The notes beneath the pieces are model-generated. The model saw only the letters and a list, made by a program, of their open reading frames with translations. It did not search any database and was not told the DNA's origin. Source: Sabellastarte sp. h YS-2021 (taxonomy: Eukaryota; Annelida; Polychaeta; Sabellida; Sabellidae). From it: DNA of 64,000 nt. The stretch is taken from NCBI GenBank assembly GCA_964017235.1, contig OZ024933.1:59812255-59876254 (forward strand). The letters are read 5' to 3'. The stretch's first letter is position 1. Each line of letters opens with the position of its first letter. A program made the position numbers and the translations under genes. Positions 6,581 through 47,500 of this stretch are shown piece by piece.

Positions 6581-6903
6581 TTCAGTGTGTTATTCACATA
6601 TTTTGGGGTCAGCTATAACATAGTAAAATTAAAACTATTGCATTTGCAATATTTTCATTAAATATGTTTTTAACTTACTTTTTACACCTTAACAGTTACC
6701 TTCTTACTTTTCTTCCAAACACCACTTCCAGGGCACAACTTTTGTGTTTTTTTCTTCTGTCACTTCTACTCTGAAACTCAAAACACACAGTCAGCTGACA
6801 CAGAGCCCGTTCACGGGCACTGATTGCTTGTTTTACATTTTACAGAAATAAAAGTACACAAGAGTTTCTGACATTGTTCATTCTGACATCGTTTTTTCAT
6901 CGT

Positions 6904-15233: not shown

Positions 15234-16135
15234 CTCAGGTAGCGGAATTTCTCCTATTCCTTTTCAAGGAGAAAAATCTTCAACCTAGCACCATAGATGG
15301 CTATAGAACTGCTATAGCCGACAAAATTGGTTGTGACAAGGTTAATTTTGGTAAAGACGAAAACCTTACCCGCTTGCTAGACAGTTTCCATAGAGATAAA
15401 CCCAAGGGTCTTCGAGGAGTCCCTAGCTGGAATCTGTCTCTGGTCTTGCATCAATTAACCCAGTCCCCCTTTGAACCCCTTCGAAAGGCGTCTCTGAAAC
15501 ATCTTACCTTCAAAACGGTGTTTCTCCTGGCTTTGGGCTCGGGCAAAAGAAGGAGTGAGATTCATGCCTGGGTACACAGGAACATTAGACATCAGGAAGA
15601 TTGGGCTAATGTTTCTTTATTCCCTTCTCCTTGTTTCTTGTCCAAAAATCAGTTGGCTAAAGAAGGGCCTTCTTCAGTAGCTCCGGTAATTATTCCGGCC
15701 TTGGCCCCTACGTTGGATAAGTCTCTCAAGGAGGATAGAACCTTATGTCCAGTTCGGGCTTTGCGTTATTACCTGGACAAGACCAAAGACCTCCGTTCCG
15801 GCAAACAGTTGGTCTTTGTGTCTTTCAAGAAGAACTTCAATAAGGACATCGCTCCTGCTACGATTTCTTCTTGGATTAAACAAACCATCTTGTTGTGCTA
15901 TCAATTGTCCAATGAGGATGCACAACAATTACATCAGGTCAGAGCCCATGATGTGCGGGCCTTTGCAGCTTCTAAGGCTTTTCAAGGAGGTGTGTCCTTG
16001 GACCAGATCCTCTCAGCCTGCCACTGGAAGTCACACAATACCTTCACCCAATTTTATTTGAAGGATGTAGCATGGGCTGATGCTGACCTGTACCATTTAG
16101 GACCAGTGGTCGCAGCCCAGCACATACGCGAGTAA
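15080..16135 (+). CDS. DIRS tyrosine recombinase
   Basis: This is the recombinase that integrates the circular DNA intermediate of DIRS elements. The N-terminal SAM-like region starts near RIEAPQRQSTRAIYESKW. The catalytic domain shows an Arg in LGSGKRRSEIHAW (about 15545-15552), HDVR with catalytic His and Arg (His codon 15947-15949), a CHWKS motif and the nucleophile Tyr in TQFYLKD (codon 16055-16057), so the R-H-R-Y set is intact. The frame is -1 relative to ORF2 and overlaps its end by about 150 bp. The open frame extends upstream to 12941, but that part is a shadow of ORF2. No in-frame Met lies near the domain start, so the start given is a domain boundary rather than a translation start. 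Confidence 0.88.
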   Translation, partial: SSIQAQGFSNEVATRIEAPQRQSTRAIYESKWSIFVKWCESHKVDFGSPSLTQVAEFLLFLFKEKNLQPSTIDGYRTAIADKIGCDKVNFGKDENLTRLLDSFHRDKPKGLRGVPSWNLSLVLHQLTQSPFEPLRKASLKHLTFKTVFLLALGSGKRRSEIHAWVHRNIRHQEDWANVSLFPSPCFLSKNQLAKEGPSSVAPVIIPALAPTLDKSLKEDRTLCPVRALRYYLDKTKDLRSGKQLVFVSFKKNFNKDIAPATISSWIKQTILLCYQLSNEDAQQLHQVRAHDVRAFAASKAFQGGVSLDQILSACHWKSHNTFTQFYLKDVAWADADLYHLGPVVAAQHIRE

Positions 16136-17530: not shown

Positions 17531-17799
17531 GAACAGAATCCACCCAATCAAGATCTCTCCTCAAATGATGGCACAGTGTTGGACAATACAGATAAAACTG
17601 AGGCTACTGCTGATATCATAACCAAATAAAACAAGAAGTCACTCAACCAACTCACCGACCGCCTTTACCCAGTTAAACTGACTTTTAACAGATTTGGGTT
17701 AAAAACAAAAACAAAAAAAAAAACAAACTGAACAGTTACAGCAATTTTATTATGTCCACCCCCCTGGGGGGTGGATATATTATTTTTGCTTTTTTCGCC

Positions 17800-17862
17800 G
17801 TCCGATGTCCGATGTCCGTTGTCCGATGTCCGATGTCCGGCGTCCGGCGTCCGATGTCCGGC
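17800..17862 (+). repeat. Heptamer microsatellite, nine GTCCGAT-type units
   Basis: Nine consecutive 7-mers of the form gtccgat, gtccggc or gtccgtt. Element A2 has only four at 25794-25821. Microsatellites next to the left hairpin are typical of pearl/HINE-like elements. Confidence 0.9.
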
Positions 17863-18198
17863 GTCACGCATGGTTTCCGCTCATTTAAAGGAAAAGTATT
17901 AGAGCTATTGTCACCAAATTTGGTATGCAGGCTTATTGGGTCAGTAGCTTGCTTGGGATTGCTTTTGGCTGTTGTACCTCTTTTGCTTACTGAGTAATAC
18001 TTAAGTACAGCTATTTTCAGTACCCATTGGTTTCCGTGCATTTAAGCCAAAATAATTAAAGATATTTTACTACAATTTTGAATACAAGATTGTTATGTCC
18101 ATAGCTCGCTTGGTATTGCATTTGGGACTGATAGCTTTGTCAGTACATGAGTAATAGCCATTTAGGTACTTCATTGTGTATTTTCAGTACTACTTTTG

Positions 18199-21100: not shown

Positions 21101-23905
21101 AGCGATTTCGTCGAAATTTTCGACCCACAGGGTATCTAAGGAATGTAATATTTGCAATTTTCAAAAAATTTTCCCCTCCCCAAAAATGGCGGCCATTTTG
21201 AATTTTCGAATTTTTGCCAAAAATGGCAAAACACAAATTTGCTTCTATCTCCTTAACCGTGCGAGATAGACATTTTGAATTTTCGAATTTTTGCCAAAAA
21301 TGGCAAAACACAAATTTGCTTCTATCTCCTTAACCGTGCGAGATAGAGCGATTTCGTCGAAATTTTCGACCCACAGGGTATCTAAGGAATGTAATCTTTG
21401 CAATTTTCAAAAAATTTTCCCCTCCCCAAAAATGGCGGCCATTTTGAATTTTCGAATTTTTGCCAAAAATGGCAAAACACAAATTTGCTTCTATCTCCTT
21501 AACCGTGCGAGATAGAGCGATTTCGTCGAAATTTTCGACCCACAGGGTATCTAAGGAATGTAATATTTGCAATTTTCAAAAAAATTTCCCCTCCCCAAAA
21601 ATGGCGGCCATTTTGAATTTTCGAATTTTTGCCAAAAATGGCAAAACACAAATTTGCTTCTATCTCCTTAACCGTGCGAGATAGAGCGATTTCGGCGAAA
21701 TTTTCGACCCACAGGGGATCTAAGGAATGCAATCTTTGCAATTTTCCAAAAATTTTCCCCTCCCCAAAAATGGCGGCCATTTTGAATTTTCGAATTTTTG
21801 CCAAAAATGGCAAAACACTAATTTGCTTCTATCTCCTTAACCGTGCGAGATAGAGCGATTTCGGCAAAATTTTCGACGCACAGGGTATCTAAGCAATGCA
21901 ATCTTTGCAATTTTCAAAATATTTTCCCCTCCCCAAAAATGGCGGCCATTTTGAATTTTCGAATTTTTGCCAAAAATGGCAAAACACAAATTTGCTTCTA
22001 TCTCCTTAACCGTGCGAGATAGAGCGATTTTGTCGAAATTTTCGACCCACAGGGTATCTAAGGAATGTAATCTTTGCAATTTTCAAAAAATTTTCCCCTC
22101 CCCAAAAATGGCGGCCATTTTGAATTTTCGAATTTTTGCCAAAAATTGCAAAACACAAATTTGCTTCTATCTCCTTAACCGTGCGAGATAGAGCGATTTC
22201 GTCGAAATTTTCGACCCACAGGGTATCTAAGGAATGTAATATTTGCAATTTTCAAAAAAATTTCCCCTCCCCAAAAATGGCGGCCATTTTGAATTTTCGA
22301 ATTTTTGCCAAAAATGGCAAAACACAAATTTGCTTCTATCTCCTTAACCGTGCGAGATAGAGCGATTTCGGCAAAATTTTCGACCCACAGGGGATCTAAG
22401 GAATGCAATCTTTGCAATTTTCCAAAAATTTTCCCCTCCCCAAAAATGGCGGCCATTTTGAATTTTCGAATTTTTGCCAAAAATGGCAAAACACTAATTT
22501 GCTTCTATCTCCTTAACCGTGCGAGATAGAGCGATTTCGGCAAAATTTTCGACGCACAGGGTATCTAAGCAATGCAATCTTTGCAATTTTCAAAATATTT
22601 TCCCCTCCCCAAAAATGGCGGCCATTTTGAATTTTCGAATTTTTGCCAAAAATGGCAAAACACAAATTTGCTTCTATCTCCTTAACCGTGCGAGATAGAG
22701 CGATTTTGTCGAAATTTTCGACCCACAGGGTATCTAAGGAATGTAATCTTTGCAATTTTCAAAAAATTTTCCCCTCCCCAAAAATGGCGGCCATTTTGAA
22801 TTTTCGAATTTTTGCCAAAAATTGCAAAACACAAATTTGCTTCTATCTCCTTAACCGTGCGAGATAGAGCGATTTCGTCGAAATTTTCGACCCACAGGGT
22901 ATCTAAGGAATGCAATCTTTGCAATTTTCCAAAAATTTTCCCCTCCCCAAAAATGGCGGCCATTTTGAATTTTCGAATTTTTGCCAAAAATGGCAAAACA
23001 CAAATTTGCTTCTATCTCCTTAACCGTGCGAGATAGAGCGATTTCATCGAAATTTTCGACCCACAGGGTATCTAAGGAATGTAATATTTACAATTTTCAA
23101 AAAATTTTCCCCTCCCCAAAAATGGCGGCCATTTTGAATTTTCGAATTTTTGCCAAAAATGGCAAAACACAAATTTGCTTCTATCTCCTTAACCGTGCGA
23201 GATAGAGCGATTTCGTCGAAATTTTCGACCCACAGGGTATCTAAGGAATGCAATCTTTGCAATTTTCCAAAAATTTTCCCCTCCCCAAAAATGGCGGCCA
23301 TTTTGAATTTTCGAATTTTTGCCAAAAATGGCAAAACACAAATTTGCTTCTATCTCCTTAACCGTGCCAGATAGAGTGATTTCGTCAAAATTTTCGACCC
23401 ACAGGGTATCTGAGCATTGTACTCTTGGTAATTTCTAAAAAATTTTCCCCTCCCCTAAAATGGCGGCCATTTTGAATTTTCAAATTTTTGCCAAAAATGG
23501 CAAAACACAAATTTGCTTCTATCTCCTTAACCATGCGAGATAGAGCGATTTCGTCGAAATTTTCAACCCACAGGGTATCTAAGGAATGTAATCTTTGCAA
23601 TTTTCAAAAAATTTTCCCCTCCCCAAAAATGGCAGCCATTTTGAATTTTCGAATTTTTGCCCAAAATGGAAAAACACAAACTGGCCTTAACCGTGCAAAA
23701 TAGAGTTATTTTGTTGAAATTTTCGACCCATAGGGTATCTAAGAAATGTACTCTTGGCAATTTTCAAAAAAATTTCCTTTTCCCAATAATGGCGGCCATT
23801 TTGAATTTTCAAATTTTTGCCAAAAATAGAAAAACAGGAATTGGCTTCTATCTTCTTAACCGTGCAAGATAGAGTGATTTCGTCAAAATTTTCAACCCAA
23901 CCAAT
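18199..23905. repeat. 169-bp tandem array of A1, about 34 copies
   Basis: Landmark gccaaaaatggcaaaacaca recurs every 169 bp (18347, 18516, 18685 and onward). Each unit has cttctatctccttaaccgtg, an AT-rich spacer and a near-palindrome aaaatggcggccatttt. One unit is truncated to about 77 bp near 21270. The last units (from about 23390) are more diverged. The many 74-104 aa ORFs on both strands are repeat shadows. Confidence 0.95.
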
Positions 23906-24118
23906 GCAAAAAGGCATGAAGCTGAAATAAATTACATCTACACTATCAAATATTTAAGCATCATTGATATATTTTACAAATGAAACAGGGTCTTGTAAGA
24001 CTACTGTACAATTTGGGCAAAAGGTTCATGGGTGGACATTACACATGATAATGTGTGTTCTTCTATGCTATCCTGTTTCTATTCGCATCTACTATCAACA
24101 GGGCGGCCTATTTCTAGT

Positions 24119-24807
24119 TTTATTTATTTATTTTTTTTATTTAAGTATTATTCAGTACATTTTGTAAAAACAGAAGTAAATTAGAGCTGAGGCAACCATG
24201 GTCCATGGATAAGTGCACTGTTTTAGGTTTGGGATGTCATGGATATAGACAATGGCAGACATGGATATGGATGAATAAAAATGGATCGACAAAATTCTAT
24301 ATACTACTCACAAAAGACAGTTGTCCTTATTTTATGCTTCTATGTCTGTGTCTACTATTGTCCTGATTGTAATGTGCTAGAGTATTTTGATATAAAGCCG
24401 TAAACTATAGTCTGTACACAACTACCCATACAAAAAGAATGGTTCTTCAGCTGTTTTCCTTGATACAGACATTGATACACTGTTTTGTGCCAAAAAGCTA
24501 GGGTGTTACAGGCACAGGTACAGATGAGGAGAGGTGTATTTCCTCTTAGATCTTGTTTATGTCACTATGTATCAGCCATTTCGCACTGAGGTGTGGCTGA
24601 AAACAACAGACTTTATTATTTCTGGAAAAATGAAACGGCATCCAATGTAACATTAAAATGAGAAAATGGCAAGTAAAACTATTTTCCAGAAGATTTTCCA
24701 ATATTCTTGTGCATTAAGTTTTTATTTAAAGTCTATAGTTTTGCAACAACAAAAAACACTCCGAGAACGCAGTGCTTCATCAAACAGCTCATTTCCACCC
24801 CAATTTT
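24119..24807. other. Unique sequence between A1 and E3
   Basis: No exon of the downstream palmitoyltransferase gene and no other gene was recognised. 24645-24703 is clearly similar to 41229-41290, on the other side of E3. This is probably intergenic or intronic host DNA. Confidence 0.5.
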
Positions 24808-25204
24808 TATGTCAGCTGACTTGTCAGTCAGCTGGCATTATGTCGTCACTCTGCGGCGTGGGCGTACGCGTCCGCGTGAACAACTTCTCCTCCAAAACTA
24901 CAAGGCCTAGAGATGTGCTGTTTTTTTTAAAAGATACCTTATCTATCGAGGATGAAAAATTGTTCAAGGCATGCAAATCTGTCTGTTCGTCTGTTTGCTA
25001 GAGACATTACAAGGGGGGTACCCCCACCAAAAGTGTGAAAATTTCAACTTTTTATCACAATTTTCTCAGTGACTATTGCAGGGATTTCTCTCATATCTTG
25101 CATATATGTACTAGGCCAGAGGTAGATTCTCTTGTGTGAGTATGAGACCTGGATCTCTCTTACTTTTTTTTAAATAAATTTTTTTAATAATTTTTAATGC
25201 ATTA

Positions 25205-25744
25205 ACATTCATGAAATCATGCACAAAATCATTTATAACTTGAAAACTGTTGCATCTAGAGCATTTTGTTAAAATATGTTATTCAGCTACTTTTTTCATA
25301 GCTACAATATGGTGAGTAAGTTGGGTCCCTGTCTCAATAGCTAAGTGAGTAATAGCTACTTTTGGGCTTTTCAGTAACTTCCATCATGAGTAGAATCACT
25401 TGTAACTTAAAAACTATTGCATTTAGAGAATTTCGTATAAATATGTTATTCAGCTACTTTTGGGTCAGCTATAACATAGTAAAATTTCAGACCTGTAGCT
25501 CATGGCATAGCTGAGTAATAGCTACTTTTAGGTTATCACTGTTGAGTAAATTGCTTATAACTTCAAAACTATTGCATTTAGAGAATTTCATATAAATATG
25601 TTATTCAGCTACTTTTGGGTCAGCTATAACATAGTAAAATTTCAGACCTGTAGCTCATGGCATAGCTGAGTAATAGCTACTTTTAGGTTATCACTGTTGA
25701 GTAAATCGCTTATAACTTGGAAACTATTGCATTTAGAGTATTTT
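25205..25744. repeat. 155-bp units of E3, left of insertion A2
   Basis: About 3.5 units of the 155-bp repeat. The last is cut after gagtatttt at 25744, and its continuation gtttcaatatg is found at 34646. Confidence 0.9.
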
Positions 25745-26159
25745 TATGTCCACCCCCCTGGGGGGTGGATATATTATTTTTGCTTTTTTCGCTGTCCGAT
25801 GTCCGGCGTCCGATGTCCGGCGTCACGCATGGTTTCCGCTCATTTAAAGGAAAAGTATTAGAGCTATTGTCACCAAATTTGGTATGCAGGCTTATTGGGT
25901 CAGTAGCTTGCTTGGGATTGCTTTTGGCTGTTGTACCTCTTTTGCTTACTGAGTAATACTTAAGTACAGCTATTTTCAGTACCCATTGGTTTCCGTGCAT
26001 TTAAGCCAAAATAATTAAAGATATTTTACTACAATTTTGAATACAAGATTGTTATGTCCATAGCTCGCTTGGTATTGCATTTGGGACTGATAGCTTTGTC
26101 AGTACATGAGTAATAGCCATTTAGGTACTTCATTGTGTATTTTCAGTACTACTTTTGAG

Positions 26160-29100
26160 TAATTTGCTAATATCTCAGAAACCGTGTGAGATAGAGCGAT
26201 TTCGTCGAAATTTTCGACCCACAGGGTATTTAAGGAATGTAATATTTGCAATTTTCAAAAAATTTTCCCCTCCCCAAAAATGGCGGCCATTTTGAATTTT
26301 CGAATTTTTGCCAAAAATGGCAAAACACAAATTTGCTTCTATCTCCTTAACCGTGCGAGATAGAGCGATTTCGTCGAAATTTTCGACCCACAGGGTATCT
26401 AAGGAATGCAATCTTTGCAATTTTCAAAAAAATTTTCCCCTCCCCAAAAATGGCGGCCATTTTGAATTTTCGAATTTTTGCCAAAAATGGCAAAACACCA
26501 ATCTGCTTCTATCTCCTTAACCGTGCGAGATAGAGCGATTTCGTCAAAATTTTCGACCCACAGGGTATCTGAGCATTGTACTCTTGGTAATTTTAAAAAA
26601 ATTTTCCCCTCCCCAAAAATGGCGGCCATTTTGAATTTTCGAATTTTTGCCAAAAATGGCAAAACACAAATTTGCTTCTATCTCCTTAACCGTGCCAGAT
26701 AGAGCGATTTCGTCAAAATTTTTGACCCACAGGGTATCTGAGCATTGTGCTCTTGGTAATTTTTCCAAAAATTTTCCCCTCCCCAAAAATGGCGGCCATT
26801 TTGAATTTTCGAATTTTTGCCAAAAATGGCAAAACACTAATTTGCTTCTATCTCCTTAACCGTGCGAGATAGAGTGATTTCGTCGAAATTTTCGACCCAC
26901 AGGGTATCTAAGGAATGCAATTTTTGCAATTTTCCAAAAATTTTCCCCTCCCCAAAAATGGCGGCCATTTTGAATTTTCGAATTTTTGCCAAAAATGGCA
27001 AAACACAAATTTGCTTCTATCTTCTTAACCGTGCGAGATAGAGCGATTTCGTCGAAATTTTCGACCCACAGGGTATTTAAGGAATGCAATCTTTGCAATT
27101 TTCAAAAAATTTTCCCCTCCCCAAAAATGGCGGCCATTTTGAATTTTCGAATTTTTGCCAAAAATGGCAAAACACCAATCTGCTTCTATCTCCTTAACCG
27201 TGCGAGATAGAGCGATTTCGTCAAAATTTTCGACCCACAGGGCATCTGAGCATTGTACTCTTGGTAATTTTTAAAAACTTTTCCCCTCCCCAAAAATGGC
27301 GGCCATTTTGAATTTTCGAATTTTTGCCAAAAATGGCAAAACACAAATTTGCTTCTATCTCCTTAACCGTGCCAGATAGAGCGATTTTGTCAAAATTTTC
27401 GACCCACAGGGTATCTGAGCATTGTGCTCTTGGTAATTTTTACAAAATTTTCCCCTCCCCAAAAATGGCGGCCATTTTGAATTTTCGAATTTTTGCCAAA
27501 AATGACAAAACACTAATTTGCTTCTATCTCCTTAACCGTGCGAGATAGAGCGATTTCGTCGAAATTTTCGACCCACAGGGTATCTGAGCATTGTGCTCTT
27601 GGTAATTTTCCAAAAATTTTCCCCTCCCCAAAAATGGCGGCCATTTTGAATTTTCGAATTTTTGCCAAAAATGGCAAAACACTAATTTGCTTCTATCTCC
27701 TTAACCGTGCGAGATAGAGCGATTTCGTCGAAATTTTCGACCCACAGGGTATCTAAGGAATGCAATCTTTGCAATTTTCCAAAAATTTTCCCCTCCCCAA
27801 AAATGGCGGCCATTTTGAATTTTCGAATTTTTGCCAAAAATGGCAAAACACAAATTTCCTTCTATCTCCTTAACCGTGCCAGATAGAGCGATTTCTTCAA
27901 AATTTTCGACCCACAGGGTATCTGAGCATTGTACTCTTGGTAATTTAAAAAAAATTTTCCCCTCCCCAAAAATGGCGGCCATTTTGAATTTTCGAATTTT
28001 TGCCAAAAATGGCAAAACACAAATTTGCTTCTATCTCCTTAACCGTGCCAGATAGAGCGATTTCGTCAAAATTTTCGACCCACAGGGTATCTAAGGAATG
28101 CAATCTTTGCAATTTTCCAAAAATTTTCCCCTCCCCAAAAATGGCGGCCATTTTGAATTTTCGAATTTTTGCCAAAAATGGCAAAACACAAATTTCCTCC
28201 TATCTCCTTAACCGTGCCAGATAGAGCGATTTCGTCAAAATTTTCGACCCACAGGGTATCTGAGCATTGTACTCTTTGCAATTTTCCAAAAATTTTCCCC
28301 TCCCCAAAAATGGCGGCCATTTTGAATTTTCGAATTTTTGCCAAAAATGGCAAAACACAAATTTCCTTCTATCTCCTTAACCATGCCAGATAGAGCGATT
28401 TCGTCAAAATTTTCGACCCACAGGGTATCTGAGCATTGTACTCTTGGTAATTTAAAAAAAATTTTCCCCTCCCCAAAAATGGCGGCCATTTTGAATTTTC
28501 GAATTTTTGCCAAAAATGGCAAAACACAAATTTGCTTCTATCTCCTTAACCGTGCCAGATAGAGCGATTTCGTCAAAATTTTCGACCCACAGGGTATCTA
28601 AGGAATGCAATCTTTGCAATTTTCCAAAAATTTTCCCCTCCCCAAAAATGGCGGCCATTTTGAATTTTCGAATTTTTGCCAAAAATGGCAAAACACAAAT
28701 TTCCTCCTATCTCCTTAACCGTGCCAGATAGAGCGATTTCGTCAAAATTTTCGACCCACAGGGTATCTGAGCATTGTACTCTTTGCAATTTTCCAAAAAT
28801 TTTCCCCTCCCCAAAAATGGCGGCCATTTTGAATTTTCGAATTTTTGCCAAAAATGGCAAAACACTAATTTGCTTCTATCTCCTTAACCGTGCGAGATAG
28901 AGCGATTTCGTCGAAATTTTCGACCCACAGGGTATCTAAGGAATGCAATCTTTGCAATTTTCCAAAAATTTTCCCCTCCCCAAAAAATGGCGGCCATTTT
29001 GAATTTTCGAATTTTTGCCAAAAATGGCAAAACACAAATTTGCTTCTATCTCCTTAACCGTGCGAGATAGAGCGATTTCGTCGAAATTTTCGACCCACAG

Positions 29101-29297
29101 GGTATCTAAGGAATGCAATCTTTGCAATTTTCAAAAAATTTTCCCCTCCCCAAAAATGGCGGCCATTTTGAATTTTCGAATTTTTGCCAAAAATGGCAAA
29201 ACACCAATCTGCTTCTATCTCCTTAACCGTGCGAGATAGAGCGATTTCGTCAAAATTTTCGACCCACAGGGCATCTGAGCATTGTACTCTTGGTAAT
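26160..29297. repeat. 169-bp tandem array of A2, left part, about 18.5 copies
   Basis: Same 169-bp unit as in A1, with an extra subtype carrying gagcattgtactcttggtaat. Blocks 28000-28506 and 28507-29013 begin as near-identical three-unit copies, pointing to a 507-bp higher-order duplication. The array is cut by element B after ggtaat. Confidence 0.95.
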
Positions 29298-29371
29298 TGT
29301 ATCCCCGACGCGAAGCGGGGATACTATGGATTCATCATCGTCGTCGTCCGCGTCCGCGTCCGCAGAGATTT

Positions 29372-29685
29372 CTTGTTAGCGACCTACAGTCCACATTTCT
29401 TTCCGGATTTCTTTCATATTTGGCAGGTGACTTGATATGGTAGAGGACTCGCCACCCTATCTTTTTGGTAGGCTTTATGTCTAAATTAGGCCTGTGGTAG
29501 ACAAAAATGTCTAAAATGTGGAATATTGCTTGTTAGCGACCTACAGTCCACATTTCTTTCCAGATTTCTTTCATATTTGGCAGGTGGCTTGGTTTGCTAG
29601 AGGACTCGCCACCCTATCTTTTTGGTAGGCTTTATGTCTAAATTAGGCCTGTGGTAGACAAAAATGTCTAAAATGCATTAAAAGT
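29372..29685. repeat. 157-bp direct duplication in B
   Basis: cttgttagcgacctacagtc starts at 29372 and 29529. The two copies differ at few positions. The segment tttttggtaggctttatgtc recurs again near 30930, right of the second left-end-like sequence. Confidence 0.88.
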
Positions 29686-29699
29686 CATGAAATCATGCA

Positions 29700-30806
29700 C
29701 TAAATCACTTATAACTTAAAAAGTGTTGCATTTAGAGCATTTTGTTAAAATATGTTATTCAGATACTTTTTTCATAGCTACAACATGGTGAGTAACTTGG
29801 GTGTCTGTCTCAATAGCTAAGTGAGTAATAGCTACTTTTGGGCTTTTCAGTAACTTCCATCATGAGTAAAATCAATTGTAACTTGAAAACTATTGCATTT
29901 ACAGAATTTTGTATAAATATGTTATTCAGCTACTTTTATGTCAGCTATAACATAGTAAAATTTCAGACCTGTAGCTCATAGCATAGCTGAGTAATAGCTA
30001 CTTTTAGGTTATCACTGTTGAGTAAATTACTTATAACTTCAAAAGTATTACATTTAGAGTATTTTGTTTCAATATGTTATTCACCTATTTCGGAGTCAGC
30101 TATAACATAGTGAAGTTCCAGACCTGTGGCTCATTGCATAGCTGAGTAATAGCTACTTTGAAGTTCACACTGTTGAGTAAATCAGTTGTAATTGGAAAAG
30201 TATTGCATTTACAGAAATTTGTGTAAATATGTTATTCAGCTACTTTTGGGTCAGCTATAACATAGTGAAATTACAGACCTGTAGCTCATGGCACAACTGA
30301 GCAATAGCTATTTTCAGGTACTGACTGTTGAGTAAATGACTTGTAACTTGAAAAATAGTGCATTTGGAGTATTTTGTTAAAATATGTTGTTCGCCTACTT
30401 TTGGGTCAGCTATAACGTCGTGAAATTACAGACTTATAGCTCATGGCATAGCTGAGCAATAGCTATTTTCAGGTTGTCACTATTGAGTAAATCACTTGTA
30501 ACTTGAAAACTATTGCATTTACAGTATTTTGCTTAAATATGTTGTTCACCTAATTTTGGGTCAGCTATAACATAGAAAAAATTCAGACATGTAGCTCATT
30601 GCATAGCTGAGTAATAGCTACTTTGACGTTATCACTGTTGAGTAAATCAGTTATAACGTGAAAACTATTACATTTACAGTATTTTGTTTAAATATGTTAT
30701 TCACATAATTTTTGGTCAGCTATAACAGAGTGAAATTGCAGACCTCTATGTCATGGCATAGCTTACCAATATCTACTTTCAGGTTCTCACTGTTGAGTAA
30801 ATCATT
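29700..30806. repeat. 155-bp tandem array inside element B, about 7 copies
   Basis: Same unit as in E1-E3, although B has different ends. It stops at aaatcattgtatccactgga, the same junction type at which the 147-bp arrays start in E1 and E3. Confidence 0.9.
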
Positions 30807-30999
30807 GTATCCACTGGATAGCCGTAGTGTGTAGAGAGATTTCACCATTACCGCTCTAACAAAAAAAAATATTATAGCTAGCCTTCTCGAGTTTGCAAAG
30901 TATATTACAGGGTGCACCACAGTACTCTATTGGTAGGCTTTATATCTAAATTAGGCCTGTGGCTAAATTACTTACCTACTAAAAATGAGTAATTCTGCA

Positions 31000-32100
31000 T
31001 TTTGTCTAAAAGTATTGCAGATAGCAAATTTTTCTTAAATAACTCATTCACCTACTTTTGGGAGAGCTTTCACATGCTGAAGTTCCAGACCTGTAGGTAA
31101 TTACTCACCTACTCAAAATGAGTAAATGCGAATTATCTCTAAAAGTATTGCAGATAGCCAATTTTTGTCAAATAACTCCTTCACCTACTTTTGGGAGAGC
31201 TTTCACTTGGTGAAGTTTCACACCCGTAGGTAATTACTCACCTACTCAAAATGAGTAAATGCAAATTATCTCTAAAAGTATTGCAGATAGCGAATTTTTG
31301 TCAAATAACTCCTTCACCTACTTTTGGGAGAGCTTTCACTTGGTGAAGTTTCAGACCTGTAGGTAATTACTCACCTACTCAAAATGAGTAAATGCAAATT
31401 ATCTCTAAAAGTATTGCAGATAGCCAATTTTTGTCAAATAACTCCTTCACCTACTTTTGGGAGAGCTTTCACTTGGTGAAGTTTCAGACCTGTAGGTAAT
31501 TACTCACCTACTCAAAATGAGTAAATGCAAATTATCTCTAAAAGTATTGCAGATAGCCAATTTTTGTCAAATAACTCCTTCACCTACTTTTGGGAGAGCT
31601 TTCACTTGGTGAAGTTTCAGACCCGTAGGTAATTACTCACCTGCTGAAAATGAGTTAATGCAAATTATCTCTAAAAGTATTCCAGATAGCCAATTTTTGT
31701 CAAATAACTCCTTCACCTACTTTTGGGAGACCTTTCACTTGGTGAAGTTTCAGACCTGTAGCTAATTATTCACCTACCCAAAATGAGTAAATGCTAATTA
31801 TCTATAAAAGTATTGCAGATATCCAATTTTTTATCAAATAACTCATTCATCTACTTTTGGGAGAGCTTTCACATGGTGAAGTTCCAGACCCGTAGGTAAT
31901 TACTCGCCTACTGAAAATGAGTAAATTCGAATTATCTCTAAAAGTATTGTAGATAGCCAATTTTTCTCAAATAACTCATTTGCCTACTTTTGAGAGAGCT
32001 TTCACTTGGTGAAGTTTCAGACCCGTAGCTAATTATTCACCTACTCAAAATGAGTAAATGCGAATTATCTCTACAAGTATTGCAGATAGCCAGTATTTCA
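31000..32100. repeat. 133-bp tandem array in B, about 8 copies
   Basis: actcaaaatgag recurs at 31111, 31244 and 31377, a 133-bp period. Units contain ttgggagagctttcac and cagacctgtaggtaattac, distantly like parts of the 155-bp unit. Degenerate 147-type sequence follows at 32110-32350. Confidence 0.9.
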
Positions 32101-32437
32101 CAAATAACTCATTATTATGAAAACAACTTAGAGGAAGTCATGGGCTGCAAATCTTTTCATGTGGTCAGATTTCACCTTGGGCCCCTCCTGCTTATTATTG
32201 GTCCTAGAGGTTTGCAATGTGAAAACGACTTATACGAAATCATGGACTGCGAATCTTTTGATGTGGTCAGACTTCACCTTGGGCCCCTGCTACAGGGTCA
32301 AATAAGGGTAGCCAAACTTAAAAGTGCTTTCACCTTGCTTATTAACGAAAAATGCTTTTTATCTTCTAAACTATGTTAGTTGGCCTTTGTCGGTGGATAC
32401 ATCCAGCATCTGGCCACAGATGCGTCCTATTTCTAGT

Positions 32438-34449
32438 TTTTAAAAAATTTTCCCCTCCCCAAAAATGGCGGCCATTTTGAATTTTCGAATTTTTGCCAAA
32501 AATGGCAAAACACAAATTTCCTCCTATCTCCTTAACCGTGCCAGATAGAGCGATTTCGTCAAAATTTTCGACCCACAGGGTATCTGAGCATTGTGCTCTT
32601 GGTAATTTTTACAAAATTTTCCCCTCCCCAAAAATGGCGGCCATTTTGAATTTTCGAATTTTTGCCAAAAATGACAAAACACTAATTTGCTTCTATCTCC
32701 TTAACCGTGCGAGATAGAGCGATTTCGTCGAAATTTTCGACCCACAGGGTATCTGAGCATTGTGCTCTTGGTAATTTTCCAAAAATTTTCCCCTCCCCAA
32801 AAATGGCGGCCATTTTGAATTTTCGAATTTTTGCCAAAAATGGCAAAACACTAATTTGCTTCTATCTCCTTAACCGTGCGAGATAGAGCGATTTCGTCGA
32901 AATTTTCGACCCACAGGGTATCTAAGGAATGCAATCTTTGCAATTTTCCAAAAATTTTCCCCTCCCCAAAAATGGCGGCCATTTTGAATTTTCGAATTTT
33001 TGCCAAAAATGGCAAAACACAAATTTGCTTCTATCTCCTTAACCGTGCCAGATAGAGCGATTTCGTCAAAATTTTCGACTCACAGGGTATCTGAGCATTG
33101 TACTCTTGGTAATTTAAAAAAAATTTTCCCCTCCCCAAAAATGGCGGCCATTTTGAATTTTCGAATTTTTGCCAAAAATGGCAAAACACAAATTTCCTCC
33201 TATCTCCTTAACCGTGCCAGATAGAGCGATTTCGTCAAAATTTTCGACCCACAGGGTATCTGAGCATTGTACTCTTGGTAATTTTTAAAAAATTTTCCCC
33301 TCCCCAAAAATGGCGGCCATTTGAATTTTCGAATTGTTGCCAAAAATGGCAAAACACTAATTTGCTTCTATCTCCTTAACCGTGCGAGATAGAGTGATTT
33401 CGTCGAAATTTTCGACCCACAGGGTATCTAAGGAATGCAATCTTTGCAATTTTCCAACAAATTTTCCCCTCCCCAAAAATGGCAGCCATTTTGAATTTTC
33501 GAATTTTTGCCAAAAATGGCAAAACACAAATTTGCTTCTATCTCCTTAACCGTGCGAGATAGAGCGATTTCGTCGAAATTTTCGACCCACAGGGTATCTA
33601 AGGAATGCAATCTTTGCAATTTTTCAAAAAATTTTCCCCTCCCCAAAAATGGCAGCCATTTTGAATTTTCGAATTTTTGCCAAAAATGGCAAAACACAAA
33701 TTTGCTTCTATCTCCTTAACCGTGCGAGATAGAGCGATTTCGTCGAAATTTTCGACCCACAGGGTATCGAAGAAATGCAATCTTTGCAATTTTCCGAAAA
33801 ATTTTCCCCTCCCCAAAAATGGCGGCCATTTTGAATTTTCGAATTTTTGCCAAAAATGGCAAAACACAAATTTGCTTCTATCTCCTTAACCGTGCGAGAT
33901 AGATCGATTTCATCAAAATTTTCGACCCACAGGTATTTCAGCATTGTATTCTTGGCAATTTAAAAAAAAATTTCCCGTCCCCTAAAATGGCGGCCATTTT
34001 GAATTTTCAAATTTTTGTCAAAAATGGCAAAACACAAATTTGCTTCTATCTCCTTAACCATGCGAGATAGAGCGATTTCGTCGAAATTTTCAACCCACAG
34101 GGTATCTAAGGAATGTAATCTTTGCAATTTTCAAAAAATTTTCCCCTCCCCAAAAATGGCAGCCATTTTGAATTTTCGAATTTTTGCCCAAAATGGAAAA
34201 ACACAAACTGGCCTTAACCGTGCAAAATAGAGTTATTTCGTTGAAATGTTCGACCCATAGGGTATCTAAAAAATGTACTCTTGGCAATTTTCAAAAAAAT
34301 TTCCTTTTCCCAAAAATGGCGGCCATTTTGAATTTTCAAATTTTTGCCAAAAATAGAAAAACAGGAATTTGCTTCTATCTTCTTAACCGTGCCAGATAGA
34401 GTGATTTCGTCAAAATTTTCAACCCAACCAATGCAAAAAGGCATGAAGC
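32438..34449. repeat. 169-bp tandem array of A2, right part, about 12 copies
   Basis: This continues the unit interrupted by B. The last units (from about 33930) are nearly identical to the last units of A1 (from about 23430), including shared variants such as ggcagcc and gcccaaaatgg, followed by the common right segment. Confidence 0.95.
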
Positions 34450-34645
34450 TGAAATAATTTACATCTACACTAACAAATATTTAAGCATCATTGATATATT
34501 TTACAAATGAAACAGGGTCTTGTAAGACTACTGTACAATTTGGGCAAAAGGTTCATGGGTGGACATTACACATGATAATGTGTGTTCTTCTATGCTATCC
34601 TGTTTCTATTCGCATCTACTATCAACAGGGCGGCCGATTTCTAGT

Positions 34646-36603
34646 GTTTCAATATGTTATTCACCTATTTTGGGATCAGCTATAACATAGTGAAGTTTCA
34701 GATCTGTGGCTCATTGCATAGCTGAGTAATAGCTACTTTGAAGTTCTCACTATTGAGTAAATCAGTTGTAATTGGAAAACTATTGCATTTAGAGAATTTC
34801 GTATAAATATGTTATTCAGCTACTTTTGGGTCAGCTATAACATAGTAAAATTTCAGACCTGTAGCTCATGGCATAGCTGAGTAATAGCTACTTTTAGGTC
34901 ATCACTATTGAGTAAATCAGTTGTAACTTGAAAACTATTGCATTTACAGTATTTTGCTTAAATATGTTGTTCACCTACTTTTGGGTCAGCTATAACATAG
35001 TAAAATTTCAGACCTGTAGCTCGTGGCATAGCTGAGTAATAGCTACTTTTAGGTCATCACTATTGAGTAAATCAGTTGTAACTTGAAAACTATTGCATTT
35101 ACAGTATTTTGCTTTAATATGTTGTTCACCTACTTTTGGGTCAGCTATAACATAGTGAAATTTCAGACCTGTAGCTCATTGCATAGCTGAGTAATAATTA
35201 CTTTGAGGTTCTCACTATTGAGTAAATCAGTTGTAATTGGAAAACTATTGCATTTAGAGAATTTAGTATAAATATGTTATTCAGCTACTTTTGGGTCAAC
35301 TATAACATAGTAAAATTTCAGACCTGTAGCTCATGGCATAGCTGAGTAATAGCTACTTTTAGGTCATCACTATTGAGTAAATCAGTTGTAACTTGAAAAC
35401 TATTGCATTTACAGTATTTTGCTTAAATATGTTGTTCACCTACTTTTGGGTCAGCTATAACATAGTAAAATTTCAGACCTGTAGCTCATGGCATAGCTGA
35501 GTAATAGCTACTTTTAGGTTATCACTGTTGAGTAAATCGCTTATAACTTGGAAATTATTGCATTTAGAGTATTTTGTTTCAATATGTTATTCACCTATTT
35601 TGGGGTCAGCTATAACATAGTGAAGTTCCAGACCCGTGACTCATTGCATAGCTGAGTAATAGCTACTTTGAAGTTCTCAATGTTGAGTAAATCACTTGTA
35701 ATTTGAAAACTATTGCATTTAGAGAATTTAGTATAAATATGTTATTCAGCTACTTTTGGGTCAGCTATAACATAGTAAAATTTCAGACCTGTAGCTCATG
35801 GCATAGCTGAGTAATAGCTACTTTTAGGCTATCACTGTTGAGTAAATCACTTATAACTTGAAAACTATTGCATTTAGAGTATTTTGTTTCAATATGTTAT
35901 TCACCTATTTTGGGGTCAGCTATAACATAGTGAAGTTCCAGACCTGTGGCTCATTGCATAGCTGAGTAATAGCTACTTTGAAGTTCTCACTGTTGAGTAA
36001 ATCAGTTGTAATTGGAAAACTATTGCCTTTACAGAAATTTGTGCAAATATGTTATTCAGCTACTTTTGGGTCAGCTATAACATAGTGAAATTACAGACCT
36101 GTAGCTCATGGCACAACTGAGCAATAGCTGTTCTCAGGCACTGACTGTTGAGTAAATCAGCTATAACTTGAAAAATATTGCATTTGGAGTATTTTGTTAA
36201 AATATATTGTTCACCTACTTTTGGGTTAGCTATAACATAGTGAAATTACGGAGCAATAGCTATTTTCTGGTTCTCACTATTGAGTAAATCAGTTGTAACT
36301 TGAAAAATATTGCATTTACAGTATTTTGCTTAAATATGTTGTTCAGCTACTTTTAGGTCAGCTATAACAGAGCAAAAATTCAGACATGTAGCTCATTGCA
36401 TAGCTGAGTAATAGTTACTTTGAGGTTCTCACTCTTGAGTAAATCAGTTGTAACTTGAAAATTATTACATTTAGAGTATTTTGTTAAATATGTTATTCAC
36501 AGACGTTTTGGTCAGCTATAACATAGTGAAATTGCAGACCTCTATGTCATGGGATAGCTGAGCAATAGCTTCTTTCAGGTTCTCACTGTTGAGTAAATCA
36601 TTG
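34646..36603. repeat. 155-bp tandem array of E3, right of A2, about 12.5 copies
   Basis: Resumes mid-unit directly after A2. Its order of variants matches parts of 650-1714 in E1, indicating a common source copy. Confidence 0.92.
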
Positions 36604-37560
36604 TATCCAACTTGTAGGAAATCATGGGCTGGTAATCTGTTAATATGGTCCGATTTGACCTTGGAACCCTCCTTCAAGGTCAAATGAGGATAGCCAAACA
36701 TAAAAGTGCTTATAACTCGCTTATTATTGGTCCCAGAGGTTGGAATGAAAACCAACCTATAGAAAATCATGAGCTGGGAATTTTTTGGTGTGGTCGGATT
36801 TCACCTTGGACCCCTCCTTCAAGGTCAAATGAGGATAGCCAAACTTAAAAGTGCTTATAACTCACTTATTATTGGTCCTAGAGGTTTCGAATGGAAAACC
36901 AACCTATAGAAAATCATGGGCTGGGAATCTTTTGGTGTGGTCGGATTTGACCTGGGACCCCTCCTTCAAGGGCAGTTGAGGATAGCCAAACTTACAATTG
37001 CTTAGAACTCGCTTATTATTGGTCCTACAAGTTTGGGATGGTAAACAAGCTACAGGAAATCATGGGCTGGGAATTTTTTTGTGTGGTCGGATTTGACCTT
37101 GGACCCCCTCCTTCCAGGTCAAACGAAGATAGCCAAACTTAAAGTGCTTATAACTCGCGTATTATTGGTCTTGGAGGTTTGGGATGGTAAACCAACATAT
37201 AGGAAATCATGGGCTGGGATTCTTTTGGTGTGGTCAGATTTGACCTGGGACCCCTCCTTCAAGGGCAGTTGAGGATAGCCAAACTTACAATTGCTTAGAA
37301 CTCGCTTATTATTGGTCCTACAAGTTTGGGATGGTAAACAAGCTACAGGAAATCATGGGCTGGGAATTTTTTTGTGTGGTCGGATTTGACCTTGGACCCC
37401 CTCCTTCAAGGTCAAACAAGGATAGCCAAACTTAAAAAGTGCCTATAACTCACTTATTATTGGTCCGAGAGGTTTGGGATGGTAAACCATCCTAAATTCT
37501 TTGGCTGGGAATCTTTTGGTATGGTCAGATTTGACCTTTGGACCCCTTCTTCATGGTGGA
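36604..37560. repeat. 147-bp array of E3
   Basis: Nearly base-for-base the same as 1715-2660 in E1, including the abrupt start tgtatccaac and the end near ggtggaacgaggatat. Confidence 0.9.
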
Positions 37561-37687
37561 ACGAGGATATTGCATTTATAGTATTTCTTTAAATATTTTT
37601 AACCTACTTTTTACCCTTAAACAATTACCTTGTTACTTTATTATATCCCCAGACGAAAGTCGGGGATATATTGGATTCAGGTCCGTC

Positions 37688-37690
<3 letters not shown>

Positions 37691-37726
<36 letters not shown>
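37691..37726 (+). repeat. (CCG)12 microsatellite of C1
   Basis: Twelve perfect CCG units. The homologous tract has 6 units in C2 and 16 in C3. Confidence 0.97.
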
Positions 37727-37727
<1 letters not shown>

Positions 37728-37839
37728 AGAAATTTCCTTGTGGACGCGATAACTCAAAAACAAATTAATATTTTTTTTTCAAACTTGGTACACATGTTAA
37801 GGGTGCCCAAAGGAAGATCCCTATTTTAAGGTGACCTTA

Positions 37840-39700
37840 AACTCCCAGTAAAAAAGAACTTATGGCCACCTTAAGGTCAGAAATTGGACTTTTGGCCACT
37901 TAGAGCCCTGTAGGTCACAAACTATGATGCTCAGCTGGCTGAAATTTTACCTGACAACACATTAATATGTTCTTAGTACATGTGCCGAAAATCACGACTT
38001 TAAGTTGAGGAGAAAATTGTGTTTGAGGCCCATAAATACCCCCACTTGGGGATTTTTTGCTATACTTTTCACATATTTTGCCCTATAATTTGGAAGTGGT
38101 AATTCTGATGAGTCTCAAACTGCGCTAGGTATAACTTTGATATGTAATCCTTGTCTGTAGAAAATTTTAGGGCTGTAGGTTTACCCAAAGGGGTCGACTT
38201 AAGGTCTCAAAAGTGCCCACAGAGACCCAATTTATGCACTTTTTGCCACTTTCAAGCACTGTAGCTTTCAAACTATGTCTCTCATCTAAGTTAAATATCA
38301 TCTGGGAATATATCTATGTGTTTTCTTATATGTGCCCCAACATTTAGGCCTTTAATAGACAGTTAACCTGTGTATCAGGACCATAAACACCCACCCGAGT
38401 GACCCTTATAAGACATTTTTCACATCTTTTTCCCTGTAACTTGGAAATGGTAAGTCTGAGAAGTTTCAAACTGTATTAGATATATATTCTGTGTGTAATC
38501 TTAGTATGTAACAGATTTTAAGTCTGAAGCTTTAATTTTGAAGGTCAAATTGAGGTCTCTAAAAGGCTCCCAAAGACCCAATATTTGGACTTTTTGCTAC
38601 TTTTAAGCCCTGTGACTGTCAAACTATGTGACTGATAGAGCTCAAATCCTATCTGGGAAGATATTAGTATGTTATTTATATATGTGCCAAAAATTAAGGC
38701 TTTAAGAAGACATTTAACCTGTGTATGAGGACCATAAATCCCCACCTGAGTGACCATTTTTAGACATTTTTCACATATTTTGCCCTGTAACTTGGAAATG
38801 GTAAGTCTAAGAAGTTTCAAACTGTATTAGATGCATATTCTATGTGTAATCTTAGTATGTGACAAATTTTAAGTCTGAGGCTTTAATTTGAAGGCCACAT
38901 TTAGGTCTCTAGAAGGCCCCATAAAGACCCAGTATTTGGACTTTTTGCCAATTTTAAGGCCTGTGACTGTTAAACTATGTGACTGATAGAGCTGAAATCT
39001 CATCTGGGAATACATTATTATGTTCTTTTTACATGTGCCAAAAATCAAGGCTTCAAGTAGACATTTAACCTGTGTATGAGGACCTTAAACACCCACCTGA
39101 GTGACCCTTTTAAGACATTTTTCACATATTTTGCTCTGTAACTTGGAAATGGTAAGTCTGAGAAGTTTCAAACTTTATTAGATACATATTCTATGTGTAA
39201 TCTTAGTATGTAACAAATTTTAAGTCTGAAGCTTTAATTTGAAAGCCACATCGAGATCTCTAAAAGGCCCACAGAGACCCAATATTTGGACTTTTTAACC
39301 ACCTTTAAGCCCTGTGACTGTTAAACTATGTGATTGATAGAGCTGAAATCCCATCTGGGAATGCATTATTATGTCCTTTTTACATATGCCGAAAATCAAG
39401 GTTTTTAGTAGACATTTAACCTGTGTATGAGGGCCATAGACACTCGCCCAAGTGCCTTTTTGGACATTTTTTCCGTATTTTGCCCTGTTATTTGGAAATG
39501 CTTAGTGTGACAAGTCTTAAACTGTATTATATATAATTTTTGTTTGTTATGTATGTCCCCCCAAAAGTTTCAGATCTGTTGTTTAATTGCTAAGGTCTCT
39601 TTAACAATTGTAAAATGCCCACAGAAACCCAATTTATGGACATTATGCCACTTTAAAGCCCAGTAACTGTCAAACTATGTGGGTTATAGAGCTGAAATCT
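37840..39700. repeat. About 351-bp degenerate tandem repeats in C1
   Basis: Repeating blocks with caaactatgtgactgatagag, cctgtaacttggaaatggta and agacatttaacctgtgtatg, spaced about 351 bp and increasingly diverged at both edges. The same organisation occurs in C2 and C3. Confidence 0.85.
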
Positions 39701-41390
39701 TTGAATTTTTAAAAGGAAATGCCTGTCTATTTAAATTTTGAATATTAATAATGTTATGGCTATCTTAGTCTTTTAAGAACTTATTTTTGTGTGTTATACC
39801 TCTGCTTGCTGAGTTTTTAACTTTTTAAAATGAAACTGGTTAAACATATTCAAGTAGACAAAATGGACACTTTAAGTGAGCTTTAAGTCCCAATATTAAT
39901 GAAATTATATCCTTATGTAGTAAAAGTAGGGGATTTTTAACCCTCAACTAGCCCAGTTTTATTCAACTTGCCTCAGTTAATTTTGACACAGCTCCTACAG
40001 TTATGAACTCATTTCAGTTGATAATCACATACTTAAAATTCTCAATTCTTTTTGTATTTGAGTACCCCTTTTATATAGATTGTTTGTTTACCATTTATGC
40101 ATCCCCCACCCGGATTCCCCCCACCCACCTCTGGGACCTCCAGCTATATTGAGTGACACTAAATAAACAAAGGTATTTAATGATATCAGATGAGAAACAA
40201 AGAACTCAATGGGGTTGCAGATCTTGTGTAATAGTGAGAGAGGTGTGGAGAAGGGGAGAGGGGTGGGGGTGGGAGGTGGTGGGCTTCATTACATATAACA
40301 CAAAGGGGAGTCAGAACTGAGATTGTGTCACATATTTAGGTTGCATATATATGGACCACATATATAGGTATAGAGGAAATGAATAACTGAAAACAATTTG
40401 CAAATTCTAAAAATAATATAATAAAATAATAATATAAATAATTTTTTTTAAAATAATATTTTATTTGTGAACAAATATAGAAACAGATATGCGCTTTTGG
40501 GATTATGAATTTTAGAATGGACATTGAATCATCAATCATTTAAATACTTTGAAGGAAGATTGAAAAGTATGATGAGTTGAGTTAAAAATAATATTTTATT
40601 TGTCAACAAATATAGAAACAGATATGCTCTTTTGGGATTATTATTTTAGAATGGACATTCAATCATCAATCATTTAAATACTTTGAAAATAGGTTTAGAG
40701 TTATCATTGCAGGAAGATTGAAAATATAATTTGAGTTATGTATTCGGCGTCTGGGGATACACCATCTTCCTTGGAAGATATAAACAGAGTAGATTGATGT
40801 GCTGAAGTTCATATAATAATGGGTAATTATGTTTTAAAAAATTCCCGATCAAAACCTGTGGCGTGAGTGATGACCTGTCTGGGGATATGTTGGCGCCGAG
40901 TTGGCCCAATCTAGTTTCATAATACCATTTGCAGGGCACAACTTTTTTGTCGTTTTCTTCTGTCAGCTTCGGAATATCTTTTAAACATGTGTTCAGTTAC
41001 CATTTACTGTATTTCTGTACAGCCCTTTCCCTGATAATTATGCTTTCCTCTCATTATCACCATCACAAATCAAAAACATTCAGTCAGCTGACACAGTGCC
41101 CGTTCACGGGCACTCTCCTCTTGTTCCTGTTAATGATCACAGTATCTTGAATTTTGTTAGTCTGGGCAAGATTTATTTATAGGAGGGTCCTATGTATTTT
41201 GTGAAGCAATCTGAAAATTAGGTCATGAAACATTAAAAATGAGGAAATGACAAGTAAAACTGTTTTCCAGAAGATGAACAATATTTTTAGGCCCAGAGAC
41301 TTGGGGTTATATGATGCATACTGTTGCAAAATAATGTCAAGGTAATTTTACTACTACATGGATGATAAACCTGTGCTCTTTCTGTTTCAG

Positions 41391-44500: not shown

Positions 44501-47500
44501 ACAATGGTACTATTTTGTCACCTCTTTCTTGGATATTGATATTTCTGTACATACAAGATTTATAGGTTCTACTTATACCTTGTTATTCCCATTGAAAAGT
44601 AACACTGTGCATCAAATTAGGTTCTAGTTATGGCAACTTTCTATAAGTCGAACTTCTAGTTATCCTTATATTTTGCACTAATAATTGTTGGGACTTAGAA
44701 ACTACTTCTACTTACTGCAATATTCTACTTATGTCCGTTCTACTTATACCAAATCTACTGTATACCAACAGGGGTCCTCAGTGGCCTCATAGTTACTCAG
44801 TCTGGTGTCTTATCATAGGCTGTCACCTCTGTTTGGGTGTTGCTCCCACAGGTGGCAGTGTTGAGGGCATGTCCTAACATGATGCTGGCTGTTGAACTGA
44901 TTGTGGAACCCCAACTTTGAACTTTGTCATGAATACCATGACTAGTTAAGGTGCTTTCCTGAAAAACATAAAACAAATTATAACTCATGCTTTTATGCAG
45001 CGGTAAAACACATACATCATTATCATTAAAACAAATTGCAGTAGTTTTACCAGTTTCTGTAGTTTTGAAGGTTATAAGGTTAAAACAGGATCCTGTCATG
45101 ACCATTAATACTGGGAGATACCTGTCGATGTTCATTTAAAAATATATATATATATTAAACTAAATTATGGAGAATACACAAATCACAAATTTAACCAAAA
45201 TTTAACCTAAAAGCTTTTCAAAAATGCCTCTCTCAAAACATACTTTACTGAATCTATCTTCTCATGTGGTTGGCTGATTTTATGTTTACCTTTCAACTAG
45301 GTAAAACCCCAAGGAGTCTTTTTTGTTTACTTTATATTTTTAAATTTATGGCTAGTTCTGTCATTTTAATCAGTAACAGTATCAAATTTTCACAAATTAT
45401 GATAGTGGTTAGTGTTTTATTTATTGTTTACAAGTTTAGAATCTAATGGTTGTACTTCAATTTTACCGATCATTGCTCGGCAGTGACCTGGGTCACCCCG
45501 CACGTGATAATAGCAGACTTTGCAAATATCAATACCCAGCACTAGTGAACATTAAGCCTTAGGTTTCTTTTATGTCCTTATAGCTCTCTACATGGTTATC
45601 CAGAGCTGGTGGTCAGTTGCAAATATATGAAATCTCGAGAACCTAATGATGTTAAAAGGTTGAGTGCAAATTAATGCTTTTCTAGTCTCAACAATTTTGG
45701 GAAAAAACTTACTTTTTCAGCAAAGATTTTACTTTTACTCAGTCTTCCATAAAAAAAAAGTAGAGTAATTAAGATCTTATGAAGCCATAAAGTTTTTCCA
45801 GTTAAGATATTTTGAGGTCTAGTTTTTCTTTCAAGGTTGTTTCATCCTTCACTTGTCATGTGTTTCAGGTTTTATCCTGTGTGGAATATCACTGTATCCA
45901 TATGCTAAGCATGTGTTTTATGTCCAGTTTGTTAGTCTGTTATTTGACAATGTCTTGTTACCTTGCACTTCTCATGTGATTCAGATTCTTGTTACCTTTC
46001 ACTTGTTATGTGTTTCAGATTCTTCTTCCTGTTCCTGATGTCACTGTCTGTTCACATGGTCAGCGTGTTTGGTCTGAGTCTTCTCTACGTACTAAAAAAC
46101 CGGTCCACACTCATCACCCCCAACAATATTGTGCTGTATCCTTTTGTTTGTGGGAAGAGTTATACTGTGGGTATGCAAAATAACATGCAATATTGAAAGA
46201 CTAAAAGATTATTTAGTATAAGAATATATGAACACAAAACATCAATGATAAACTTGAAGTAGATGTTAGTGTCTAGACTTTTCATATCTGCAGGACTCAA
46301 CAACAATAACATAAGACTTTTTTATGTTTAATCCATTACAAGCAATTTAGAGAGACTTCAGCTCATATTTATGGACATTCTTAGATTTAGAATTTTCTAA
46401 GAAAAAAATGCCTCCATGTTTTAGTACATCCCAAGCAAACAAAGGTTATGAAGTGTCGTAACCAAAACATGGCAGGTCTGCTCAATGTAACTGCAATAAA
46501 AGTCTGCAAATGCCAAAAAAATATGGATTAAAAGCTTATAATTTGTTCAGATTTTGGGTATGTTCCCAGTATTTTGAGTCTTCCTTCCATTATATGTGCT
46601 GACAAGCGAAGTGGTGGTTGTAAAATGTCCTCATGGTATTTCAGTAAAATGCTGTCCATACTGAGACACCGGGCCCTACCGACCCATCCCTAGAGTCTGA
46701 CCATTATGGTATAATTGTGACTAACTTCTCTGTGTACCTACTCTACATGCACATTAGTTTAGCAACTGGTTCTGTTGATACAGAATCTAAAGCAATAAAG
46801 ATGGAAAGAGGCCCTCTTCAAGAAGTGGTTTATGATAGGTTTACGATTTGAAGTAATAAAAAAAATCTACGATCTAGGCTTTAGTTTAAAAGTTTAACCC
46901 TCTTTGTGAAGTGGTTTATGATAGGTTTATAATTTGAAGTATTAAAAAGATCTACGATCCAGGCTATAGTTTACGATGAGGTTTAAAATGCATTCCCAAT
47001 GCACAAGATATTTTTCCGATGGCTTCACGATTGGTGTTGCTATTGCCTCAGAAAATCTTCTGAAAGGATTACGATAGTTTCCCAATCCATCCAATTGGTT
47101 TACGATGGATCTAAGATGAAACAGATAGGTTTACAATTGCCACAAGATGGAAAAGATAGCTGTACGAGTGTAAGATAGATTTAAGATCGTTGTAAGATTA
47201 AAAGATGGCAATATGATAGGTTTACGGTGTCATAAGTCTGAGAATTGAGAAAGGTTTGTGATAATTTCAAGGCAGTCAGAAATTCTCATAAACTGTTACT
47301 GATGGACTCCCGAGTGCTGTACTTGTAAACCTATGGGAAGTACCATATTTTCCATACAGGATCTCTGTACAATGGCATTAAGATCATTAAGATGTATAAA
47401 ATTCATTTCCCAATTCCCAAATTTACACAGTTACGAGCAAGGTTTATGATACATCGCAGAAATGGAGCAGCCTTCTAACCGATCTCCAGACACAGTCTTA

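Follow-up and report, generated by a model that had tools for sequence, protein, structure and literature searches.

Nonautonomous Helentron-like elements of the HINE type have been described from the oyster Crassostrea gigas (Cg_HINEs; PMC7492417) and, as HINE/DINE-1, from arthropods (PMC4067079). In bivalve genomes, HINEs disperse satellite-like arrays; in the available text of PMC7492417, autonomous elements could not be related to the Cg_HINEs. A Cg_HINE combines a 5' subterminal inverted repeat (subTIR) and its inverted partner, a short microsatellite, tandem arrays, and a 3' subTIR with a palindrome. The arrays consist mostly of 140- to 180-bp units, sometimes two in a row. The elements occupy T-rich sites without duplication, and some are inserted in fragments of other TEs. 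The elements found in the 64-kb stretch of DNA analyzed here (the window) resemble the Cg_HINEs in the subTIRs, the arrays, and the T-rich sites without a consistent duplication, and several of them also in the inverted partner, the microsatellite, and the palindrome. The microsatellites of several Cg_HINEs are GTCY, GTCC, or GTCK, and that of family A in the window is GTCCGAT/GTCCGGC. The array of the A copy A1 comprises approximately 34 units (18.2 plus 15.6 by TRF), compared with 29.3 units in the longest Cg_HINE array given in that text. The 351-bp unit of family C sets the window apart from the Cg_HINEs, compared by description rather than by sequence. Neither a nest whose sites are exact to the base nor a composite of three families was found in the available part of PMC7492417.

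The accessible part of PMC4067079 reports for arthropod HINE/DINE-1 elements the same structure, T-rich targets that stay unmodified, and flanking Ts that cannot be assigned. Four of the five families in the window end in CTAG under the TT...CTAG convention; 5' TT and 3' CTAG ends are given there for a proto-Helentron of Phytophthora, which inserts between A and T. The same source proposes missed termination or composite transposition for HINEs. For the canonical Helitron Helraiser (Helibat), the portion of PMC4778049 at hand demonstrates bypass of the 3' end, a hairpin terminator. The window elements share the CTAG 3' end with Helraiser/Helibat and, if the reading of the composite B given below is right, also the hairpin terminator and its bypass to a downstream terminator. 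Unlike Helraiser/Helibat as described there, they lack a 5' TC start, their targets are not consistently A^T, and no RepHel was seen.

Elements of the window and the anatomy of their ends

Self-comparison of the window revealed arrays of 155-, 169-, 147-, 133-, and 351-bp units as blocks that interrupt one another, with five or more HINE-type families in the interval from 24807 to 41123. This interval is occupied by the outer HINE-type element E3 (24807 to 41123), which carries 155- and 147-bp arrays and is the host of the nest. Here and below, ends are written as TT...CTAG or TT...CTTG, and all elements lie on the + strand. The HINE-type element A2 (25744 to 34644), with a 169-bp array, sits in the 155-bp array of E3, and the composite unit B (29297 to 32436) sits within the 169-bp array of A2. 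Two further insertions interrupt E3 directly, namely, D1 (36601 to 37569), a decayed D-type insertion with a 147-bp array and a lost 3' end, and C1 (37641 to 40914), a HINE-type element with a 351-bp array. The original prediction that E3 is broken by A2, A2 by B, and E3 again by C1 was confirmed, with limits of E3 that agree within 1 bp. Its "four-level" nest is reduced to three successive insertion levels (E3 > A2 > B), and a fourth is reached only if the internal content of B is counted.

Relatives of these elements are present elsewhere in the window. E1 (1 to 2960) is a relative of E3 that is cut by the window edge and contains D1 at 1712 to 2680. E2 (2961 to 6830), another E3 relative, has no 5' end in the window and is the host of D2 (4942 to 6579), a D-type element with a 147-bp array that lies in the 155-bp array of E2. 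The second A copy, A1 (17750 to 24117), is identical to A2 at 416 of 417 and 220 of 223 positions of the ends. C2 (56731 to 59989) matches C1 at 3219 of 3249 positions, and C3 (62205 to 64000), cut by the window edge, matches C1 at 1685 of 1699 over approximately 1.7 kb.

Directly after the 3' end of E1, the E-internal T-rich leader goes on (2966 to 3030 versus 25174 to 25238, 89%); the start of E2 at 2961 to 3030 may reflect insertion of E1 into E2 or truncation of E2. A 64-bp direct repeat (85%) lies approximately 100 bp outside each end of E3 (24645 to 24708 and 41225 to 41288). All 11 recognized HINE-type insertions (E1, E2, E3, A1, A2, B, C1, C2, C3, the D1/F ancestor, and D2) are on the + strand. 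Over the whole window, this strand has 1069 T runs of at least 4 and 767 such A runs, and the T-run excess might cause an orientation bias of the insertions; both orientations are reported for C. gigas HINEs in the available text of PMC7492417.

Analysis of the element ends revealed perfect subTIRs of 10 bp in A1 and A2, 12 bp in C1, C2, and E3, and 11 bp in D2, in agreement with the approximately 11 to 15 bp of HINEs; the subTIR measures 9 bp in F, the D-type part of B, and only 7 bp between the outer ends of B. Among 2000 shuffles, the subTIR length was matched by none for A2, C1, C2, and E3, by one each for A1 and D2, by 8 for F, and by 100 for B. The 5' inverted partner spans 8 to 9 bp in A, B, C, and E3 (8 bp in the last), 5 bp in D2, and 6 bp in F. 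The 5' repeats stand at the terminus, and the 3' inverted repeats start 38 to 44 nt before the 3' end (88 nt in A). A microsatellite is present in A, C, and B (GTCCGC in B); by eye, none was seen in D2, F, or E. The elements start with TTATGTC, TTGTATC, or TTATATC; the end sequences are 5' TTATGTCCACC, TTATATCCCC, or TTGTATCC and 3' CTAG. CTAG ends A, B/F, C, and D2, and CTTG ends E1, E2, and E3, with T as the next base.

Folding of the last 50 nt gave z values of -3.6 for E3, -2.0 and -1.8 for B/F, -0.4 for A1, 0.1 for A2, 0.3 for both C1 and C2, and -0.65 for D2. E3 and B/F have a clear 3' stem, D2 has a shorter one, C an interrupted one, and A one of 6 bp; the folding energy beats shuffles only in E3 and, mildly, in B/F. 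The subTIRs, the 5' partner of A, B, C, and E3, the arrays, and the CTAG/CTTG 3' ends support the HINE/Helentron-type anatomy originally proposed.

Empty sites and target duplication

For the empty-site test, joined flanks of 80 + 80 and 40 + 40 bases were compared without gaps against the whole window. The empty site of A2 was found at 583, inside E1, with 160 of 160 positions identical. That of B was located at 27188, in a 169-bp unit of A2's own array (159/160; next best, 158). The joined short flanks of C1 matched E1 at 2711 (79/80). With long flanks, identity dropped to 128/160 at 2671 because of indels in the flanks, and a gapped alignment cut one T longer gave 155 identical positions in 161 columns with 3 gaps. 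The empty site of D2 lies in the 155-bp array of E2 (74/80; 126/160), and that of E3 is absent from the window. Excision had originally been said to restore the sequence interrupted by A2, B, and C1, as was confirmed; D2, the fourth nest with an empty site, was new to the present analysis, as were D1 and the E fragment inside B.

When the right flank was slid from -6 to +6 bases, the maximum was at 0 for all four inserts, with near seconds for B (74 at -1 versus 79 at 0) and D2 (71 at +1 versus 74). We estimate that, with array units of 155 or 169 bp, chance would bring both flanks into exact register about once in 155 to 169 cases.

The alignment of flanks to paralogous empty sites had been suggested originally as a check for duplications of 2 or more bp. 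A2 leaves room for a duplication of at most 1 bp, B and C1 each for one of 2 bp (TT), and D2, by eye, for one of 2 bp. A general target duplication of at least 2 bp is refuted by A2, and a TT duplication at B, C1, and D2 is neither shown nor excluded. By eye, each of the four filled sites exceeds its empty site by two Ts, which are assignable to neither end. The four sites are T-rich and carry no consistent duplication, as expected of HINEs and as originally claimed; insertion "between T residues" proved approximate, the base left of the insert under the TT...CTAG convention being T for A2, A for B and C1, and G for D2. A2 and D2, which belong to different families, hit the 155-bp monomer within 2 bp of one spot (GTATTT^TGTTTC at 25744 and GTATTTAG^TTTC at 4942).

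Composition and origin of B

Both outer ends of B restore one 169-bp monomer, so that, as judged from these flanks, B is shown to occupy A2 as a single insertion unit of 3140 bp. B had been listed as an ordinary element, a description that is ruled out by its internal homologies to C, E, and D. The first part (29297 to 29671) opens with a 5' end like that of C, followed by two 157-bp units that are alike at 147 of 154 aligned positions. From the first base, the 5' end of B aligns to that of C2 with 71% identity over 83 columns (E, 1e-6) and to those of C1 and C3 with 72% over 68. At AATG (29672), B switches to E sequence. This second part (29672 to 30804) contains 155-bp units, aligns to E2 and E3 (212/229 positions with E2, in a stretch that begins before the join), and ends at the same TTGTATCC junction as E1 (1712) and E3 (36601), with the last monomer shared. 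Across the array/TTGTATCC junction, identity is 218/243 between B and E3, in a stretch that passes the junction, and 246/250 between E1 and E3. The third part, F (30805 to 32436), is a D-type element complete with both ends of its own. It starts with TTGTATCCAC; next come 133-bp units and what remains of 147-bp-like ones, and its 3' part is alignable to that of D2 (236/293).

All families may have been moved by one machinery, as originally proposed; the chimera suggests only that the 5' end of a C-like element can be used together with the 3' end of a D-type one. The simplest origin of B, which we judge slightly more probable than its contrary, would be read-through from a 5' end lacking its own terminator, across the adjoining E array, as far as the terminator of the nested D. 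The AATG join, where no element end is present, would require an earlier rearrangement before any read-through. The chances are even that the transposition that produced B crossed families, beginning at one HINE family's 5' end and terminating at the 3' end of another family nested downstream. Alternatively, recombination or break repair with filler DNA might have made an ordinary element composite, after which the finished composite transposed normally. This course of events is less likely, though a serious rival. In its favor, the 157-bp repeat and the E fragment meet in a common AATG away from any element end, and part of the 157-bp unit recurs within F (77% over 62 bp), which indicates shuffled modules; stepwise acquisition of filler DNA has been argued for insect Helitrons in the available text of PMC6544945. 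However, filler DNA should leave B its own 3' end, and the actual 3' end belongs to a D-type element (by D2 homology and the 9-bp pairing) whose 5' end is within B. A limited literature search yielded no nested HINE chimera, which leaves room for one in print.

Insertion order, class, and significance

At this locus, E3 is older than A2 and C1, as the original order had it, and B landed in the array of A. Since inner elements can travel with their host, the proposed sequence "B after A2" holds for B and the array of A2 alone; B is younger than this array, yet it may already have been within A before A entered E3. No relative order is obtainable for A2 and C1.

E1 and E3 contain the same internal D insertion (D1) at the same junction. 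From this shared position, we infer that E moved, or was copied, carrying the older D insertion; D1 thereby indicates that passenger elements probably occur in the window. In ungapped comparison, E1 and E3 are identical at 965 of 968 positions in the 147-bp arrays and at 274 of 277 in the 3' parts, and E1 and E2 at 160 of 188. By sequence identity, A1/A2, C1/C2/C3, and E1/E3 appear to be close copies, and E1/E2 shows that not every copy is young. The high likeness of E1 and E3, together with the position of the E1 5' end beyond the window, would also fit a segmental duplication instead of separate insertions, in which case the shared D insertion would say nothing about comobilization; this is improbable, since the likeness ends at the shared 3' end CTCTTG and the DNA past that point differs. 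Still less probable is an origin of part of the nest as an assembly artifact of collapsed or misjoined repeat arrays: long, similar arrays of 155-, 169-, 147-, 133-, and 351-bp units are hard to assemble, but the breaks coincide with element termini, and at four inserts the interrupted sequence is recovered when the flanks are joined.

The interval very probably represents a nest of HINE-type elements, with B as a one-unit composite. The canonical Helitron start with 5' TC and insertion at A^T were not found (5' ends TTATGTC, TTGTATC, and TTATATC; left bases T, A, A, and G); as to the canonical 3' CTRR, the CTAG of A, B/F, C, and D2 fits, and the CTTG of E1, E2, and E3 does not. Cut-and-paste DDE (MITE-like) elements with TT target duplications, least probable of all, would have terminal inverted repeats and a duplication of fixed length, and despite a possible TT in B, C1, and D2 and the two extra Ts in every filled site, this reading was rejected, as A2 permits 1 bp at most, the 3' inverted repeats lie 38 to 44 nt (88 in A) inside the 3' end with only the 5' ones terminal, and the 3' ends show CTAG or CTTG before T. 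For the HINE-type reading, a Helentron Rep/helicase would nick in T-rich DNA, and a single strand would be peeled off from the 5' end. The 3' hairpin/CTAG would stop the strand, which would then be joined into a T-rich site elsewhere.

A strict de novo scan of the window gave 7 hits on the + strand, comprising A1, A2, C1, C2, E3, and two cross-pairings, and missed B, D2, and F. On the - strand, 12 of 13 hits were in 147-bp arrays and one was at 44942 to 46329; no convincing - strand HINE-type insertion emerged from this strict form, which imperfect members escape. Twenty shuffled sequences gave 0 to 4 hits. A loose form of the scan was unspecific (5 to 18 hits in 6 locally shuffled controls). 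Viral contigs scanned for two patterns, the 169-bp core and the 5' end of C, gave 0 hits for either. A Pfam search (E, 0.001) of 7 of the 8 window ORFs of at least 130 aa revealed no Helitron domain. Pfam domains mark other transposable elements in the window: a MULE transposase domain (PF10551) at 7875 to 8609 (- strand), a LINE-like reverse transcriptase with zf-RVT at 50039 to 52429 (- strand), and a DIRS-like retrotransposon with reverse transcriptase and RNase H domains at 10757 to 16135. The end of one ORF of the latter, without a Pfam match, resembles a tyrosine recombinase.

The HINE-type members of the window are of an already known kind, as the available texts on oyster (PMC7492417) and arthropod (PMC4067079) elements describe them, and a candidate cross-family read-through is readable in it. 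How such elements combine can be read here with unusual clarity; B as a composite and D as a passenger most deserve to be followed, and the exact empty sites open the TT question to test. If true, B would give a tangible example of what the accessible part of PMC4067079 proposes, missed termination or composite transposition, and its C-like 5' and D-type 3' ends would be indirect evidence of an enzyme shared among families. One transposase would then serve HINE families of this genome that look unrelated, and T-rich tandem arrays would be landing pads through which nests become new composite mobile units.
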